Origin: Bryobacterales bacterium
GTDB lineage: Bacteria > Acidobacteriota > Terriglobia > Bryobacterales > Bryobacteraceae
NCBI GenBank assembly: GCA_003487005.1
Contig: DNFG01000117.1
Span: forward strand, 1-13,393
Direction of reading: 5' to 3'
DNA: 13,393 nucleotides
Below, piece by piece: positions 101 to 10,785 of the stretch (within the stretch, counting starts at the first letter, position 1; the number at the start of each line of letters is the position of its first letter). The translations under genes were made by a program, and so were the position numbers. Below the pieces are notes generated by a model. The model was given only the letters and a program-made list of their open reading frames with translations. It did no database searches and had not been told where the DNA came from.

Positions 101-190
101 CACAAATCGGTGCGGCGACCGCTGAGCACCCATGAGCGACCGGCCAGGGCCAACGTTTGCAGAAAGAGGTAGCATACTGCCATTTTGAGC

Positions 191-206
191 AGTACTATAT
201 AGTTCT
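191..206 (+). promoter_or_regulatory. Candidate LexA-type operator overlapping the promoter
   Basis: AGTACTATATAGTTCT is a 16-bp inverted repeat with one mismatched position (AGTACTAT / ATAGTTCT). It abuts the lexA ATG at 207. On the other strand it reads GAAC-N6-GTAC, which resembles but does not equal the GAAC-N4-GTTC box of Bacillus LexA. Its AT-rich centre holds -10-like hexamers (TACTAT 193-198, TATATA 196-201), which would place transcription start at or near the ATG. No Shine-Dalgarno sequence is present, so the mRNA may be leaderless. I see no convincing -35. A repressor bound here would block its own promoter, as expected for autoregulation. Confidence 0.55.
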
Positions 207-824
207 ATGGCTTCCTTGCCAACGGAGCGCCAACGGCAAATTGCGTCATTCCTCCGATCCGAGTCGCGCGAACGCGGAATTGCGCCAACGCAACGTGAGA
301 TCGCCGAGCGTTTCGGCTTCGCCAGCCTGAACTCCGTGCGGTCCCACCTTCGGCTGATGGAGAAGAAAGGAATGCTCAATCGGCTCCCTGGCAAGGCCCG
401 GGGCCTGGAGCTGAAAAAGCGCCCCGTGATCGGCATCCCCTTGGTCGGCCGCATCGCGGCAGGTCATCCTCGGCTCGCAAGCGAGGATGAAGGCGAGATC
501 GTTCCGGTTTCTCCGGATCTGTTTCCTGGGTCTGATCTGTTCGCCCTTCGGGTGAAAGGCGAAAGCATGAAGGATGATGGGATTCTGCCAGGTGACATAG
601 CTGTCATGGCGCGCCAGAACGATGTGGCGGAGGGCGAAATCGCCGCAGTGCTGCTAGACGATGAGGCAACACTCAAACACATCTACAGACCCCGTGGGAA
701 AGTAGTCCTCCGGGGGGCCAATCCGGCATTTCCCGACATCGTCATTCGCGATGGTCAATCGGGTTCGGTTCGAATTCTCGGCAAGTACGTCGGCCTCATT
801 CGCACACAGGGGGCCGCGCGTTAG
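207..824 (+). CDS. lexA: LexA-type SOS repressor (S24 autopeptidase)
   Basis: The 205-residue product has the normal length and layout of LexA, a repressor that cuts itself when RecA filaments form on damaged DNA. Residues 1-70 form the winged-helix DNA-binding domain, with the recognition region around TQREIAERFGF (28-38) and RSHLRLMEKKGML (45-57). The cleavage bond is Ala85-Gly86 in VGRIAAG. The catalytic dyad is Ser120 in KGESMKDDG and Lys157 in EATLKHIYR. All hallmark residues are present, so it should be active. The start is fixed by the alignment and by the operator ending just before it. Its TAG stop is followed at once by the methylase ATG. Whether it is the organism's main LexA or a dedicated copy for this cassette cannot be told from the window; its place at the head of a restriction-type operon suggests the latter. 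Confidence 0.93.
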   Translation: MASLPTERQRQIASFLRSESRERGIAPTQREIAERFGFASLNSVRSHLRLMEKKGMLNRLPGKARGLELKKRPVIGIPLVGRIAAGHPRLASEDEGEIVPVSPDLFPGSDLFALRVKGESMKDDGILPGDIAVMARQNDVAEGEIAAVLLDDEATLKHIYRPRGKVVLRGANPAFPDIVIRDGQSGSVRILGKYVGLIRTQGAAR

Positions 825-3800
825 ATGGCGACAACACCTCCCAGTTCCGCCCAACCCCTGGCAGATCGCCTGGCGCACTACGGCGTCACTAGCGTCATCA
901 GGCTTGATGAGAGGCTCACCTCTGCCGAGCAGTTGGATTATCTTGACTTGCTTCCCAAGCAAAGCAACCATGCGCCGGCTCTCACTGCCGTCGCGGAACA
1001 CCAAGGAGCGGCTTTGCTCTATCTGGTGGACACCAGCAGCAACGTAAAAAGCGACGCTGTTTCACTAGCTACTCTCCGAAAGCAACTCGCGAATCGTAGC
1101 GACCCCGCCTGGCTTGGTGTCCTCCGGTTGGGCTCCCTTGAAGTGTTCCCTATTGGATTCCACGAGGCCGCAGATTCCGTGGCGGTAAAGATTGTTGAGG
1201 AACAGAGCCCGGCGGCGCCGCTGTTCTTCCAGAGCCTCGCCCACGGAACATTCGAAGAAAACCACCGTCTGGGTGGCACCGACTACGTATTCAAAAAGAT
1301 CTTCGACCTGCTAACCCGCATGACGACGGAGTTCGTGCCTGCGAACGGTAAGGGGAAACTGGATGCGCTCGAGGTCCTGTCGATGGCGGGTCGAGCGCTG
1401 TTCTTCCGCTTCCTTGTCGATCGGCGAATCGTTCTGGAATCCGAGCGTGATCAAATTTGCCCGGCTGCCAGCGAACTGAAAGATGCGTTCTCCTCGGCAG
1501 ACAAGGCAGCGCAAACCTCTGCCTGGCTCGACGCGACATTCAACGGGGACTTCTTGCCCCTCGTTGACGAGTCTATTCCCGCCAATAACCGGGATGCCCG
1601 TGAGACCGAGTATCTGCGATTCTTTCGGCGCACGGAACGCTTGGCTGGAAAGCGGGTCTTTGATCATCTCCACGCAATTCTGCGTGGTTGGCGAGCGACT
1701 GGCGACGCAGTGCAGACTGAACTGGACTGGGGTGACTTGGACTTCGCCCACATCCCAGTCGGTGTGCTCAGCCAAGTCTATGAGAGCTTCAGTCACCGCG
1801 CGGACCCGCGGACGGCACGTGACACGAGTGTTCACTACACGCCCCGAATGATCGCGGGACTGATGGTTGACCAAGCTTTCGCCGCGACGAAATACAAAGC
1901 GAGCACCCGCGTCCTGGACAGTTCCTGCGGCGCCGGCATCTTTCTCGTACTCGCATTCCGTCGCCTCGTCCGTGAACATTGGATTGCCCACAACGAGCGT
2001 CCAAAGACTGCGGTCATTCAGAGCATTCTCTACAACCAACTGCGCGGCTTTGACATCAGCGAGCCCGCGCTGCGGCTGGCGGCCTTGGCGCTCTACATAA
2101 CCGCGATTGAACTGAACGCCAGTCCCCGGCCGCCTCAGGCGCTAAAATTCCCCCGCAATCTGCGCGGTGAAGTGCTCTATCGCTTCGGCGTGGGCGGGAG
2201 TGAGGAGACGACCTTTCCTTTGGGCAGTCTGGGCCCGGAGGTTCCCCAGGACTTTGACAATTCGTTCGACATTGTCATCGGCAATCCACCCTGGACGCGA
2301 TTGCGGGACAGCAAGGATGATCTCGACAACAGCGATGAGGAGAACAAGAAATCGCCCACCGATGAGTTGAACAAAACTTTTACTGCGATTGGGCAGCGTG
2401 TGCTTGCGAGTCGCGGATTGGAGGATCTTGCGGCTGGCTACCGAAACCCAGACAAGAACCCGGATTTGCCTTTCCTATGGCGTGCGATGGAGTGGGCGAA
2501 GGAAGGGGCGGTCATCGCGCTGGTGATGCCGGCGAGGCTCTTTGGGCGGATCTCGGGAAGAGGATTTGAAGCGTGGCGGGCCGTCCTAAGGAGCGTCGAA
2601 GTCACAGGACTCATCAATGGCGCAGATCTTCGATGGTCGGCGGTCTGGAAGGATGTCAAGATACCGTTCTGCCTCTTCTTCGCGCGCAACCGAGCTCCTG
2701 GTCCCGACCATCGCTTTTACTACGCCGCGCCAATTAACGAGCCTGAAATGAACGGCTGCGGGCGTTTCAGGATCGACTATGATGCCGCCCAACCCCTCAG
2801 CACTGCGCGAGTCGAAAAACAGCCCTGGATTCTCAAGGCCCTCGCATTCGGCACGTGGCTTGACGTCGAACTCATGGAAGCACTTTCGACCGCCGGTGGG
2901 CAGACATTGGAGAGTTTCTGGGCAGCTTGGGATCGACGTGGTGTCAAAACAGGCAAAGGATATGATCGCTCACCGCAACTGACGCAGAAATTTGTGGACT
3001 TCTTGGGCGATCTTCCAGTGTTTGCCCCGCACTCACAGACACTGCTCGGAGAGGCGCAACCAAAGACGTACGGTGAGATGTTCGGCAGGAATTCCGAGGG
3101 GCGCAGCAGCGCCTATTGGCCGAAGACAAAAGACCTTTTCCAGCCGCCGCTTGTCGTCATACCTCAATCACCGGGTGACCAGAATAGTCGACCGCGCGCC
3201 TACATATTAGATCATCCCGTGGCCTTTTCTCAAAGTTATTACGGCTATTCGTGCGCGGGCCATCCGCAAGCGGATACCCTGGCGGGGCTGATCTACTTGC
3301 TAGCCCACTCCACGCTGTTCGATTATTTCTGCCTGATGACGAGCATTCGGAGCGGTTTTGACCGCCAGACTTTCAACAAGAAGGAGTTCGACGCGCTCCC
3401 ATTTCCGGATGTCGCGGACCTCTCTGAAAGGGACAAGGCTACCATCCGCAGCCTTACCCAGCGGCTTCAGATTGACAGCGTCGGACCGAGGGCCGACCTC
3501 AACAAATTTATCTTCCCGCTATACGGCCTCAATCCTGACGCGGTCCAAGTAGCCGAGGACACACTCTTCTCGGCAGCGGCGTATCGAAAGGCGGGTAGGG
3601 CAGCGCTGGAGCGAACCACCGTGGAGACGCGCAAACCCTTCTTGGATGCTTTGCGAAGCGAGCTAGAACCGTACTTCGACGTCTGTGCGGAACACGCGGC
3701 AGTAAGTGAAGCGGCCTTTCAGCCGGCGGACTGGCGCGAATCTTGGTTCTTCATTTCGGTCGCTCGCGAAGGACACTCCGTACCGGTCAATCCCGCCCTG

Positions 3801-3992
3801 ATGCGGGAGGCCATGGATGCAGCTAACCAACGTGGCTGCAGCCGAATCATGGTCCACGCGCCTGGTAAGCGTGGCCTCCTTGTCGGCCTCTTGAACCAGC
3901 GCCGGTGGTGGACCATCACCCGCGCGCGTCTCTGCGCCCAACACATCATCCGCGAACGCTTGGGTTCATGCGGACTCCCGGAGCATTCATGA
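825..3992 (+). CDS. Eco57I/type IIG-like N6-adenine DNA methylase
   Basis: This 1055-residue protein belongs to the class of large N6-adenine methylases found in type IIG, BREX (PglX) and related defence systems. Seen directly: HYTP at 337-340 (motif X region), VLDSSCGAGIF at 363-373 (SAM-binding motif I), and FDIVIGNPPW at 481-490 (catalytic motif IV, NPPW). The segment from about 690 to 865, ending in FNKKEFDALPFPD, resembles the target-recognition domains of TaqI/Eco57I-like enzymes. Residues 1-300 match nothing I can name, and I see no clear PD-(D/E)xK motif there, so cleavage may depend on the next gene. It starts directly after the lexA stop with no gap and shares ATGA with the nuclease gene, so translation is probably coupled. 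Codon use is more mixed than in genes to the right, which suggests horizontal transfer. The target sequence cannot be predicted. Confidence 0.85.
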   Translation: MATTPPSSAQPLADRLAHYGVTSVIRLDERLTSAEQLDYLDLLPKQSNHAPALTAVAEHQGAALLYLVDTSSNVKSDAVSLATLRKQLANRSDPAWLGVLRLGSLEVFPIGFHEAADSVAVKIVEEQSPAAPLFFQSLAHGTFEENHRLGGTDYVFKKIFDLLTRMTTEFVPANGKGKLDALEVLSMAGRALFFRFLVDRRIVLESERDQICPAASELKDAFSSADKAAQTSAWLDATFNGDFLPLVDESIPANNRDARETEYLRFFRRTERLAGKRVFDHLHAILRGWRATGDAVQTELDWGDLDFAHIPVGVLSQVYESFSHRADPRTARDTSVHYTPRMIAGLMVDQAFAATKYKASTRVLDSSCGAGIFLVLAFRRLVREHWIAHNERPKTAVIQSILYNQLRGFDISEPALRLAALALYITAIELNASPRPPQALKFPRNLRGEVLYRFGVGGSEETTFPLGSLGPEVPQDFDNSFDIVIGNPPWTRLRDSKDDLDNSDEENKKSPTDELNKTFTAIGQRVLASRGLEDLAAGYRNPDKNPDLPFLWRAMEWAKEGAVIALVMPARLFGRISGRGFEAWRAVLRSVEVTGLINGADLRWSAVWKDVKIPFCLFFARNRAPGPDHRFYYAAPINEPEMNGCGRFRIDYDAAQPLSTARVEKQPWILKALAFGTWLDVELMEALSTAGGQTLESFWAAWDRRGVKTGKGYDRSPQLTQKFVDFLGDLPVFAPHSQTLLGEAQPKTYGEMFGRNSEGRSSAYWPKTKDLFQPPLVVIPQSPGDQNSRPRAYILDHPVAFSQSYYGYSCAGHPQADTLAGLIYLLAHSTLFDYFCLMTSIRSGFDRQTFNKKEFDALPFPDVADLSERDKATIRSLTQRLQIDSVGPRADLNKFIFPLYGLNPDAVQVAEDTLFSAAAYRKAGRAALERTTVETRKPFLDALRSELEPYFDVCAEHAAVSEAAFQPADWRESWFFISVAREGHSVPVNPALMREAMDAANQRGCSRIMVHAPGKRGLLVGLLNQRRWWTITRARLCAQHIIRERLGSCGLPEHS
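3980..3983 (+). promoter_or_regulatory. Shine-Dalgarno GGAG for the nuclease gene
   Basis: GGAG lies five bases before the ATG at 3989, inside the end of the methylase gene. It favours that start over the upstream ATGs at 3905 and 3968 and over the later ATG at 4103, which has no Shine-Dalgarno-like sequence before it. Confidence 0.5.
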
Positions 3993-4741
3993 GGGCGAGG
4001 GGCACAACTGGCTTTTTCACACTTGGCGTGCGATCGGATCAATACCACCTCCCACATCCGCGTTTGGGCTTGCCGGTGATCCTTCTGCTTCGGCGCGTGC
4101 TAATGAAGGCGTTTGAGAAGCTGCGAGATCGAGGTTTCCCACTGGCCGCAGAGCGAGAGGATCGCATCACGGAACAGCTTTTCAACGTACTTGAAAACGA
4201 CCTTCGCCAGACAGGCGAAGTCATTGGCTTCAACTCCGCGTTCTATGACCGTGTTGTTCGTCATGCTGAAGTCACGAACTACAACGGCGAAAAGCTCGCG
4301 AAGACGCCCGACCTCTCTTTCAAACTCCGCCATGGGGAATCTGAGTCGCGCCCCGTTCTTTCCTCACACGACGCCCTTTTTGTCGAATGCAAGCCGGTCG
4401 ATGGAGACCATGCTGCCGGGAGCGCGTATTGCGACGACGGCCTGATCCGATTCGTGAATGGCGACTACGCATGGGCGATGCAGGATGCAATGATGCTTGG
4501 TTACGTCCGCAACGGTAGAAGCATCGCCGGGCACCTTGTTCCCGCCATGGCAGCCTCCGCCAGACAACAGTCACTTGCCGTTGTCCAGCAACTCCAGCCA
4601 TGCGAAGAGGCCGGAGCCGCCACCTGTGCAGAGGCGGAGGCAGTTTACCTCTCCAGGCATCGTCGTGCGTTCACATGGCCCGACGGCAAAGGCCCTGCGA
4701 CTGATATCACCGTCTTTCATCTCTGGCACCGCTGTGAGTAA
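3989..4741 (+). CDS. PD-(D/E)xK nuclease-like protein, probable REase
   Basis: From the ATG at 3989 this gives 250 residues; I recognise no named family. It carries a plausible PD-(D/E)xK core: Pro107-Asp108 in KTPDLSFKL, then ALFVECKPVD with Glu133-x-Lys135, at the spacing and hydrophobic context of this nuclease fold. The segment GLIRFVNGDYAWAMQDAMMLGY (151-172) looks like the helix that follows the core. I infer that it is the DNA-cleaving partner of the upstream methylase. The start was chosen for its GGAG and its ATGA overlap with the methylase stop. An ATG at 4103 would give 212 residues beginning MKAFEKLRDRG and may be the true domain start, because the 38 residues before it look unconserved. 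It could instead be a helper protein with a decayed nuclease fold. Confidence 0.68.
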   Translation: MRARGTTGFFTLGVRSDQYHLPHPRLGLPVILLLRRVLMKAFEKLRDRGFPLAAEREDRITEQLFNVLENDLRQTGEVIGFNSAFYDRVVRHAEVTNYNGEKLAKTPDLSFKLRHGESESRPVLSSHDALFVECKPVDGDHAAGSAYCDDGLIRFVNGDYAWAMQDAMMLGYVRNGRSIAGHLVPAMAASARQQSLAVVQQLQPCEEAGAATCAEAEAVYLSRHRRAFTWPDGKGPATDITVFHLWHRCE

Positions 4742-8324: not shown

Positions 8325-9857
8325 ATGCCCAGATACGCGGCCATTGATGTGGGAAGCAATTCGATCCGCCTGATGGTGGCGGAGGCGGACCGGAATGGAG
8401 TGGTGGAGACGCTGGCGGAAGAGCGCCAGGTGACGCGGTTGGGGGAGTGTGTTTTCCGGACCGGCCAACTGGATCCGCGGGTGGTGGAGGAGGTACTGGG
8501 CGTGTTGGGGCGGATGGCGGGGGTATACAAGGGGCTTTCGCCGCTGGCGGTGCGCGTGGTGGCAACGGCGGCGCTGCGGGACGCGTCGAACAGTGACGAC
8601 TTTCTGGACCGGGCGACGGAGATCGCGGGGGTTCCGGTCGAGATCATTTCGGGGCAGGAAGAAGCGCGGCTGATTCATCTGGGGGTGGAGTCGCGGTGGC
8701 CGCATCCGGAGGAGCGGGTGTTGCTGATCGACATTGGGGGCGGGAGCGCGGAGATTATCGAGGCGGTACAGGGGCAGATGCAGACGGCGTTTTCGCGGCC
8801 GCTGGGGGCGGTGCGGATCCAGTCGCTGATTGTGAGCCAGGATCCGCCGTCGCGGGAGGATCTGGAGCGGCTGCGGGAGTATATCGACGAGAAACTGGCG
8901 GTGGTGTTGCGGCGGATTCCTCGGGGCGGGTTTGCGCGGGCGATCGGGACATCGGCGTCGGCATCGGCGGTGGTGTGCGCGGTGAACCGGATCCCGCGGA
9001 CGAAACGGGACCTGGCGGACCGGCGGCGGGCGACGACGGACGAGATCCGGAAGTTGTACGCGCAGTTGAGCACGATGAACCTGGCGGCGCGGCGGAAGTT
9101 GACGGGCATCGGACCAAGGCGGGCGGAGATCATCCTGCCAGGCGCGGCGGTGCTGTTGCGGGTGCTGGAGGAGTTTGAGATCCCGCAGTTGGCGTACTGC
9201 GCGGCGGGGGTCCGTGACGGATTGATCCGGGATCTGGCACTGCGGGGCGTGGGCCGGGAGCGGGCGAGGCTGGACCGGGAACAGCGGGCGATGGTGGAGC
9301 GATTTGCGCGGCGGTTTGGGGTGGATTTGCGGCATGCGCGGCACGTGGCGGGGTTTTCGCGGGAGTTGTTCGACGCGCTGGCGCCGCTGCACAAGCGGCC
9401 GCCGGAAGAGGGGCGATTGCTGGAGGCGGCGGCGTATTTGCGGGATGTGGGTCACGCGATCAACGACACGAGTCATCACAAACATTCGCATTACATCGTT
9501 TCGAGGTCGGATCTGGCGGGATTCACGGCGGAGGAACGGGAGCAGGTGGCGATTTTGTGCCGGTATCACCGGAAGGCTGTGCCGGTGGCGCGGCATCTGG
9601 AGTACCAGACGTTGACACCGGAGCAGCGGAAGTCGGTGATGATGCTGGCGCCGTTGTTGCGGGTGGCGGACGCGCTCGACCGGAGCCGGGATCAGCGGGT
9701 GGAGGGGATCGGGTGCGCGGTGAAGAACGGGACGGTGGAGTTGCTGGTGCAGTCGCCGGTGGACACGGGGCTGGAGCAGTGGGCGGTGGAGGGGACTGGG
9801 GAGTTTTTCCGGCAGGCGTATGAACGGGCGCTGGTGGTGACGAGGGAGGAGACATGA
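8325..9857 (+). CDS. ppx: Ppx/GppA phosphatase with C-terminal HD-like domain
   Basis: The 510-residue protein is a member of the exopolyphosphatase / pppGpp phosphohydrolase family, cytoplasmic enzymes that shorten polyphosphate or convert pppGpp to ppGpp. The ASKHA phosphate loops are clear: AAIDVGSNSIRLMV (5-18), VVATAALRDASN (78-89), ISGQEEARLIHLG (108-120) and LLIDIGGGSAEII (133-145). GTSASASAV (208-216) closes the catalytic domain. From about 315 there is the HD-like domain, with His340 and the HHKHSHYIV stretch (384-392). The usual HD pair is Arg373-Asp374 (YLRDVGH), so the HD part may lack hydrolase activity. The ATG is set by the conserved N-terminus; there is no Shine-Dalgarno. Its stop overlaps the first CHAD gene by ATGA. 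The adjacent CHAD proteins favour polyphosphate over pppGpp as substrate. Confidence 0.93.
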   Translation: MPRYAAIDVGSNSIRLMVAEADRNGVVETLAEERQVTRLGECVFRTGQLDPRVVEEVLGVLGRMAGVYKGLSPLAVRVVATAALRDASNSDDFLDRATEIAGVPVEIISGQEEARLIHLGVESRWPHPEERVLLIDIGGGSAEIIEAVQGQMQTAFSRPLGAVRIQSLIVSQDPPSREDLERLREYIDEKLAVVLRRIPRGGFARAIGTSASASAVVCAVNRIPRTKRDLADRRRATTDEIRKLYAQLSTMNLAARRKLTGIGPRRAEIILPGAAVLLRVLEEFEIPQLAYCAAGVRDGLIRDLALRGVGRERARLDREQRAMVERFARRFGVDLRHARHVAGFSRELFDALAPLHKRPPEEGRLLEAAAYLRDVGHAINDTSHHKHSHYIVSRSDLAGFTAEEREQVAILCRYHRKAVPVARHLEYQTLTPEQRKSVMMLAPLLRVADALDRSRDQRVEGIGCAVKNGTVELLVQSPVDTGLEQWAVEGTGEFFRQAYERALVVTREET

Positions 9858-10300
9858 CAGTGCGGCGGGAGGCGTGGGAGCGGGGGGCGGCGGAGTTCGC
9901 GCGCGGGGAGACGGAGGCGCGGATGGCGCGCTTTTTCGAGGAACTGGAGCGGGCGACGCGGGCGCCGGATGAAGAGGCGGTGCATGATTTGCGGGTGTCG
10001 ATCCGGCGGTTTTCGCAGGCACTGCGCATCTTTGCGCCGCTGTTGCCGGGCAAGGCGGTGAAGAAGATCCGGGGGCGGATGAAGGTAGTGATGGACGCGG
10101 CGGCGGTGGTCCGGGACCTGGATGTGGGCATGGAGGCGCTGGCGGAGTTGGGGGTGGAGGCGGAGGACGCGGTGGTGGTGCAGATGCGGGCGGAGCGCCG
10201 GCGGGGAGAGTTGTTCTTGCTGGGGCAGGTTTGTTTGTTGCGGGCGGAGGATCTGGAAGTGGAGTGGCGGGCGCGGTTGGGCTGGAGTGAAGCGGGATGA
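9854..10300 (+). CDS. N-terminal half of a split CHAD-domain protein
   Basis: CHAD domains are alpha-helical repeats rich in conserved His and Arg/Lys that bind polyphosphate. This 148-residue protein has only the first half: VHDLRVSIRRFSQALRIF (43-60) with His44, Arg47, Arg51 and Arg52, then VVRDLDVGMEAL (85-96), the RDLDV signature. It stops where the second helical half should begin. An AGGAG/GGGAGG sequence just before the ATG and the ATGA overlap with ppx show coupled translation. A CHAD protein next to Ppx is a known pairing and suggests that it presents or tethers polyphosphate. It could be one chain of a heterodimer with the next product, or the first part of a gene broken by a frameshift or sequencing error. 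Confidence 0.8.
   Translation: MTVRREAWERGAAEFARGETEARMARFFEELERATRAPDEEAVHDLRVSIRRFSQALRIFAPLLPGKAVKKIRGRMKVVMDAAAVVRDLDVGMEALAELGVEAEDAVVVQMRAERRRGELFLLGQVCLLRAEDLEVEWRARLGWSEAG
10284..10287 (+). promoter_or_regulatory. Shine-Dalgarno GGAG for the second CHAD gene
   Basis: GGAG lies nine bases before the ATG at 10297, inside the end of the first CHAD gene. A well-placed ribosome-binding site together with the ATGA overlap supports separate, coupled translation of the second half rather than a sequencing frameshift. Confidence 0.5.
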
Positions 10301-10785
10301 AGAAGGGGCGGAGCCTGGACTGGGATCCCGGGTTGAGCGCGGGGGAGAACGCGCGGGTGCAGTTGCCGGCGGTGACGCGGGAGTTTTTCGCGGCGGGGCG
10401 GGTGTTGCTGGCGGGGGCGGCGGCGCCGGTGGATCTGCACAATTTCCGGCTGGCGGCGAAGCGGTTCCGGTACACGCTGGAGATGTTCCGGCCGTTGTAT
10501 GGGCCGGGGCTGGAGGAGAAGTTGGGGGCGGTGCGGAAGATTCAGTCGTTGCTTGGAAGCAGGCAGGATTGCGAGGTGCTGGCGGGGCGGTTGCGGCTGC
10601 CGGCGCAGGGGTCGGAGGCGTTGCGGGGGGCACTGGAGAAGACGGAGCGGCGGGCATTGAAGCTGGAGCAGGAGTTCCGGGCGTACTGGCTGGACGAGTT
10701 TGACGCGGCGGGGCGGGAACTGGCGTGGGTGCGCTATTTCACGCGGCGGCCGCCGGCGCCGCGGAGACCGAAGGTGACTGAATGA
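10297..10785 (+). CDS. C-terminal half of a split CHAD-domain protein
   Basis: The 162-residue product carries the second CHAD half: LHNFRLAAKRFRYTLEMF (47-64) with His48, Arg51, Lys55, Arg56 and Arg58, then KIQSLLGSRQDCEVL (81-95), equivalent to the LQxxLGxxxD segment of whole CHAD proteins. It lies one base back in frame from the first half and begins at an ATGA overlap with its own GGAG. In the upstream direction its frame meets a TGA within about ten bases of the ATG, so a fused reading needs a shift in a very short interval. Together the two proteins total 310 residues, about one normal CHAD domain. Its stop overlaps the methyltransferase start by ATGA. The basic, Pro-rich tail (150-162) is not conserved CHAD sequence. 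Confidence 0.8.
   Translation: MKKGRSLDWDPGLSAGENARVQLPAVTREFFAAGRVLLAGAAAPVDLHNFRLAAKRFRYTLEMFRPLYGPGLEEKLGAVRKIQSLLGSRQDCEVLAGRLRLPAQGSEALRGALEKTERRALKLEQEFRAYWLDEFDAAGRELAWVRYFTRRPPAPRRPKVTE

Follow-up and report, generated by a model that had tools for sequence, protein, structure and literature searches.

What does a complete LexA repressor do at the head of a DNA methylase gene and a nuclease gene? This question is raised by a 13,393-base stretch of DNA from a Bryobacterales bacterium (i.e. the window, which is the entire contig C373 of a 4.47-Mb metagenome-assembled genome (MAG) of 527 contigs and 84% completeness). On the + strand of the window, a lexA gene (207..824) is followed by genes for an N6-adenine DNA methylase (825..3992) and a PD-(D/E)xK nuclease-like protein (3989..4741). 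A predicted LexA operator, the E. coli-type SOS box TACTGCCATTTTGAGCAGTA, lies at 175..194 (not assigned to a strand), 12 bp 5' of the lexA start codon. An earlier note on this DNA had proposed a LexA-led, damage-responsive defence cassette starting at 191, a position that falls inside the operator and splits it. The reading favoured here, at a probability of roughly two in three, is that operator and genes form a self-contained, mobile and SOS-inducible restriction-modification cassette. Damage-controlled expression of the whole cluster is the simplest reading, given that the genes are coupled, that an operator precedes them and that the autoprotease residues are intact.

The gene layout given in the earlier note held up throughout. 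The 205-amino-acid LexA matched the Pfam LexA winged-helix DNA-binding (PF01726) and S24 autoprotease (PF00717) domains and scored 178.7 bits against the NCBIfam equivalog TIGR00498 (cut-off 110.95). The residues that the note had placed at Ala85-Gly86, Ser120 and Lys157 were found at these positions on a numbered translation, and the Ala-Gly cleavage site and Ser/Lys catalytic dyad are kept in all 29 cassette LexAs (i.e. that of the window and those of 28 further loci described below). Judged by these retained residues, the cassette LexA is probably fit for RecA-stimulated self-cleavage. The lexA and methylase open reading frames (ORFs; 207-824 and 825-3992) abut with no spacer at a TAG/ATG junction, and the nuclease start lies within the final methylase codons as an ATGA overlap at 3989, both as previously described.

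The 1055-amino-acid methylase, which has a predicted target-recognition region, matched the Eco57I, N6_Mtase and MmeI_Mtase Pfam domains over cut-off, upholding its assignment as a large N6-adenine methylase. The NPPW motif at residues 487-490 was invariant in 51/51 aligned sequences, as were D365 and G369. The best PADLOC model was a type IIG enzyme (2.2e-22, residues 302-430), and a model of the protein gave fold matches over residues 311-902, the closest being CamA, BrxX and MmeI. In its architecture the protein resembles the methylase-plus-recognition portion of type IIL/IIG enzymes, and it would be expected to methylate DNA; a further domain may reside in residues 1-150, a stretch without explanation. 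Identity as a BREX or MADS component was rejected, with BREX profiles scoring 23.6-27 bits against NCBIfam cut-offs of 400-900, and the viral library matched the methylase with general adenine methylases only. The 250-amino-acid nuclease-like protein had no match in Pfam, PADLOC or NCBIfam, and a Foldseek search against the PDB returned nothing at E<=0.001. Of 1961 candidates, 948 were homologous at E<=1e-3, and the start at 3989 is supported because the homologues (best 120 of 948) are 199-260 amino acids long, most of them near 250. The protein has a restriction-like nuclease fold, and P107-D108...E133-x-K135 was invariant in 60/60 aligned nuclease sequences, in agreement with the earlier PD-(D/E)xK-like assignment; cleavage of DNA may be predicted from these residues. 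Conservation of the methylase and nuclease residues is far beyond chance.

The operator was scored as matches to the 10 positions of TACTG-N10-CAGTA, the ends of the E. coli SOS consensus TACTG(TA)5CAGTA (PMC9578287), in the sequences upstream of the 29 cassette lexA genes. The window box is a perfect match. A score of 10/10 was obtained for 11 of the 29 cassettes, >=9 for 23 and >=8 for 27, as compared to means of 0.07 (maximum 1 of 29) for >=9 and 1.4 (maximum 6) for >=8 in 300 dinucleotide-preserving shuffle sets. The two lexA-led cassettes under 8 were L046 (7/10, a CCG-N10-CGG form) and L059 (5/10, GGTGAACATTTGTTCACC). L057 and L059, whose LexAs belong to another lineage, carry other palindromes, and the nearest relative of the L057 LexA, at L104, has a similar upstream palindrome (ATACTACTCATGTGAGTAGTAT against ATACTAGCCATTTGTCTAGTAT). 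No box of >=9/10 was present before any of 24 scored lexA-less loci (four contig-edge loci were left out) and two of them, L063 and L069, reached 8/10. Direct placement of lexA-less loci under a box of the E. coli type, the one form scored, was therefore rejected.

The box at 175-194 is the sole perfect site in the window MAG (5 occurrences of a reversed-pattern control), and a longer form of the motif with up to 3 mismatches was likewise found only there (control 1). Across 27 carrier genomes there were 0-4 perfect sites per genome (control 0-16); the count exceeded that of the control in four genomes (G398, G402, G404 and G411) and did not do so in the other 23. The cassette box is perfect in ten of these carriers; it is the only perfect site of the genome in three (G401, G412 and G421) and is accompanied by one to three further perfect sites in the other seven. 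A genome-wide set of perfect sites, the only matches scored, is not indicated because each carrier has just 0-4 of them, and the operator may be dedicated to the cassette. The other LexA of the window MAG, on contig C182, has a different upstream palindrome (AGTGTGTAAACACT). Cassette boxes in Geobacter also differ from the reported host LexA motif, GGTT-N10-AACC (PMC8565304).

Several further features of these upstream regions were observed. In five cassettes (L035, L041, L048, L049 and L050), all from Deltaproteobacteria/Thermodesulfobacteriota, two SOS-like boxes spaced by 15 bp overlap in a common half-site, making rows of three half-sites. Geobacter sp. UBA6151 has two different lexA-led cassettes, L041 and L044, with TACTG-like and TACCG-N10-CGGTA operators, respectively. 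In a Prosthecobacter MAG (G420) that has a lexA-led cassette, a perfect box also precedes genes for an S24 (UmuD-like) protein and, by eye, a Y-family polymerase (L176:1752-3489), and the cassette LexA may control these genes too. A sigma-70 promoter before the window lexA was sought by a simple scan and none was found on the + strand; at L048, by eye and unscored, TTGCTT-N17-TATAAT overlies the first box.

Recurrence was assessed in a single scan of public genome contigs with the nuclease alignment, which yielded 58 loci. The methylase gene precedes the nuclease gene in 56 of these, L055 and L062 being truncated by contig ends; it is in two frames at L012, L022 and L037 and only partly open at L065. 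Six loci were left out of the lexA count, four cut within the methylase (L018, L043, L047 and L067) and two with short upstream DNA and no lexA (L023 and L027). LexA was searched with one query at 1e-4 and by tblastn with 29 LexAs over the 1.2 kb upstream of lexA-less methylases, a search that a very divergent LexA could escape. A lexA gene stands directly before the methylase in 28 of 50 judged loci, at a gap of -13 to +30 nucleotides to the called ORF start in all 28, so that the three-gene order does recur in other genomes, as the earlier note had suggested checking. Judged by their names, the carriers of lexA-led cassettes, most of them MAGs, include Acidobacteriota, Verrucomicrobiota, Pseudomonadota, Thermodesulfobacteriota, Kiritimatiellota and Nitrospinota; a seventh label, Myxococcota, was not counted, as the carriers concerned are named only as Deltaproteobacteria. 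In a methylase tree built by a quick method, loci with and without lexA are so mixed that at least 8 changes are needed (contig-edge rows left out of the count). The pattern is most simply read as lexA having been gained and lost repeatedly, the LexAs coming from two lineages that each brought its own operator.

These two lineages were apparent in a LexA tree. Of the 29 cassette LexAs, 27 fell in a single group (support 98/98) across the six phyla, together with two other LexAs from one Desulfobacteraceae genome (L113 and L114) that had no methylase or nuclease relatives in the surrounding 12-kb and 9-kb stretches. The LexAs of L057 and L059 fell in a second group, which also includes LexAs from ten further loci (eight in Verrucomicrobiota genomes), and a single clade for all 29 was rejected (approximately unbiased test, p 0.00012). 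A cassette-group LexA without methylase or nuclease, in a Desulfobacteraceae MAG (G406; L174:5691-6963), adjoins what by eye is an integron-type tyrosine recombinase gene.

The earlier note had also allowed that this LexA might be the sole SOS regulator of its lineage. This does not apply to the host MAG, which encodes a second full-length LexA (150.8 bits) on C182 and a C-terminal LexA piece on C431. Twenty of the 28 genomes that carry a lexA-led cassette, among them the window MAG, have a second LexA over cut-off; the remaining eight are taken up below. A RecA gene was not found in the 84%-complete window MAG; RecA was found in 12/12 of its relatives and in 27/27 carrier genomes, 26 of them over cut-off.

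The closest cassettes found were in Acidobacteria MAGs. Among 395 other genomes sampled from the phylum of the window, only five had a methylase match at 1e-10, all distant; horizontal spread fits this rarity, and the window copy is probably mobile. The neighbouring M28 peptidase, sought as a guide to an empty site, was unmatched at 1e-40 in the 3 same-genus genomes, with 7 weaker matches elsewhere. Methylase relatives were present in 10 plasmid records, and the three examined had a nuclease relative downstream and no LexA. On one of these plasmids, Agrobacterium tumefaciens pAtK224b, an XRE-annotated gene precedes the pair, and AbiE genes, a restriction endonuclease gene and an integrase gene are nearby. 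A phage-borne system was rejected, no phage record matching the methylase at 1e-20. A scan of viral contigs with exact patterns, a limited approach, matched 12 stretches, none of which encodes a relative.

Flanking genes were listed by ORF for seven lexA-led loci and a few were typed in six, with no control loci, and no enrichment is claimed. Known defence genes stand beside three of the six: GajA and GajB (Gabija) genes adjoin the cassette at L049 and L052, and a type IIG enzyme gene is directly upstream of that at L044. At L034 a gene for a RhuM-family protein was typed, and at L032 genes for an ERCC4-domain protein and for a kinase-sigma54 protein; to our knowledge, these represent no known defence system. 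In Malonomonas rubra (L033:10819-16304), TnsA, TnsB, TnsC and TniQ genes lie right of the cassette with a magnesium-chelatase gene that we take to be ComM-like, which suggests that this cassette is the cargo of a Tn7-like element. In the window, the typed genes of the right flank encode a peptidase, Ppx/GppA, CHAD, a methyltransferase and a lactate permease. The CHAD domain is divided between two ORFs with a 4-base overlap 3' of the Ppx/GppA gene (9854-10785), and a GC-rich tandem repeat with a unit of ~11 bp (CCCCTTCGGCC) occupies 2-101, the contig end 5' of the operator.

Taken as an SOS-inducible restriction-modification cassette, the cluster would work as follows. LexA would bind the SOS box before its own gene and thereby repress all three genes, transcribed as a single polycistronic message. 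Host DNA would be marked by the methylase, and the separate PD-(D/E)xK protein would cut unmarked DNA. Phage attack, incoming DNA or other damage would give rise to RecA filaments and hence to self-cleavage of LexA; methylase and nuclease would then rise together, presumably in defence against phage, and repression would return once the signal fades.

Three observations weigh against this reading. Firstly, lexA is optional, since 22 of the 50 judged methylase-nuclease pairs lack it (L037 and L042 among them retain lexA pieces and L065 is doubtful). Secondly, no defence gene is present among the typed genes right of the window cassette, and its left side is the contig end. Thirdly, eight of the 28 carriers have no second LexA over cut-off (G399, G407, G409, G411, G412, G413, G415 and G422); G407 is the isolate Malonomonas rubra and the second LexA of G411 is slightly under cut-off. 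The LexA-led defence cassette of the earlier note is supported in part: by the recurring gene order, by the conserved SOS box before lexA, by the presence of another LexA in the host MAG and by the defence neighbours of some loci (L044, L049, L052 and the pAtK224b relative). Pairs without LexA, which the note had named as counting against it, make up 22 of the 50 judged loci, and to this extent the objection holds. One of the lexA-less pairs, L060, comes from an archaeal (Woesearchaeota) MAG and has a small winged-helix gene upstream. A more ambitious form of the favoured reading, to which we would give somewhat less than even odds, is that of portable damage-gated immunity: a dedicated LexA and operator would stand outside the host SOS regulon, LexA would have been taken up on two or more occasions, from separate lineages whose operators differ, and restriction would be a second line raised by phage-inflicted damage.

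LexA could alternatively be mainly a controller of establishment or dosage, like a C protein or RptR, with the damage response as a by-product. On entry into a cell without repressor all genes would be on and host DNA would be methylated, after which LexA would accumulate and keep the module low. The predicted autoregulatory operator directly before lexA and the spread of the cassette over six phyla suit such a role, and RptR, the first gene of its own island, represses its own promoter (PMC12255303). LexA-less relatives can also have other small genes in front; the XRE-annotated gene of pAtK224b had no Pfam match, and the gene upstream of L069 gave a weak MerR match (E 0.005) under cut-off. 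However, retention of Ala-Gly, Ser and Lys in 29/29 LexAs goes beyond the needs of a plain repressor, and two cassettes have a LexA from a second lineage at their head. We regard this explanation, the main rival, as unlikely.

Less probable still is a damage-triggered abortive response or addiction, in which the nuclease would cut under-methylated host DNA and kill infected or cassette-losing cells. Type II systems are able to induce the SOS response and to kill cells that lose them (PMC3874152), and a single gene cluster would tie the nuclease to damage. Against this, methylase and nuclease share a predicted message and would increase jointly, and a simple scan found no separate nuclease promoter on the + strand of the window. 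Finally, the cluster could serve not restriction but the repair or epigenetic marking of DNA in connection with damage, the nuclease being a repair enzyme. Such a role would fit LexA control, which is typical of repair genes, but is highly improbable given a methylase model nearest to CamA, BrxX and MmeI (although CamA, the best match, is itself an epigenetic methylase without a nuclease and not a restriction enzyme), the restriction-like fold of the nuclease, the AbiE and restriction-endonuclease genes near the plasmid relative and the frequency of lexA-less forms.

Little is known of how infection turns on restriction and other defence genes, and first-gene repressors of such genes, e.g. RptR, are a current topic (PMC12255303); how repression is lifted in RptR islands is left unsettled in the same source. 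For the favoured reading of an SOS-inducible cassette, damage-triggered immunity is directly testable because the known biochemistry of LexA names both the signal (RecA filaments) and the operator. The 250-amino-acid nuclease family also merits attention, having hundreds of homologues yet no match in Pfam, NCBIfam or PADLOC. No LexA-controlled restriction-modification operon was found among the titles and abstract openings of the matches listed, a coverage outside which most subscription journals and bioRxiv fall, and a term search for 'LexA' gave 0 occurrences in the searchable text of a 2025 review of host-dependent restriction-modification (PMC12707154).

Among known systems, the cassette resembles type IIL/IIG enzymes (e.g. 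MmeI, DrdV and BpuSI) in having an N6-adenine methylase core with a predicted recognition region and a PD-(D/E)xK nuclease partner. It differs from them in that a LexA gene leads the cluster and the nuclease is a separate 250-amino-acid gene, whereas single-chain type IIG/IIL enzymes combine nuclease and methylase in one polypeptide. The cassette has the marks of a type II-like restriction-modification system, i.e. a methylase that combines catalytic motifs with a predicted recognition region and a nuclease gene that regularly accompanies it; in such a system both enzymes would act on the same DNA sequence. PglX/BrxX of BREX is unlike it both in scores far under cut-off and in setting, since the recurring unit here comprises two or three genes, one of them for a nuclease; no family-by-family search for further BREX genes was made. 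As in C-protein type II systems, RptR type I islands (RptR being a first-gene autorepressor; PMC12255303) and the WYL regulators BrxR (PMC9122601) and CapW, a regulator gene is tied to restriction or defence genes. Unlike those regulators, that of the cassette is a full LexA with self-cleavage residues and an SOS box, so that its signal can be named, and its 205 amino acids set it apart from the small lambda-cI-like regulator of C-protein systems. The perfect SOS box before lexA is new here, and the nearest known kinds are type II/IIL restriction-modification systems and LexA-led mutagenesis cassettes. The latter, imuA-imuB-dnaE2, are damage-inducible, have a second lexA as their leading gene in some lineages and may travel with their own lexA. 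The imuABC genes are covered in PMC9578287. These cassettes are unlike the present one in their cargo, which is translesion-synthesis genes and not a methylase and nuclease. If the favoured reading is true, the cassette would be the restriction-modification parallel to these mutagenesis cassettes, a single-operon LexA regulon present in several phyla.

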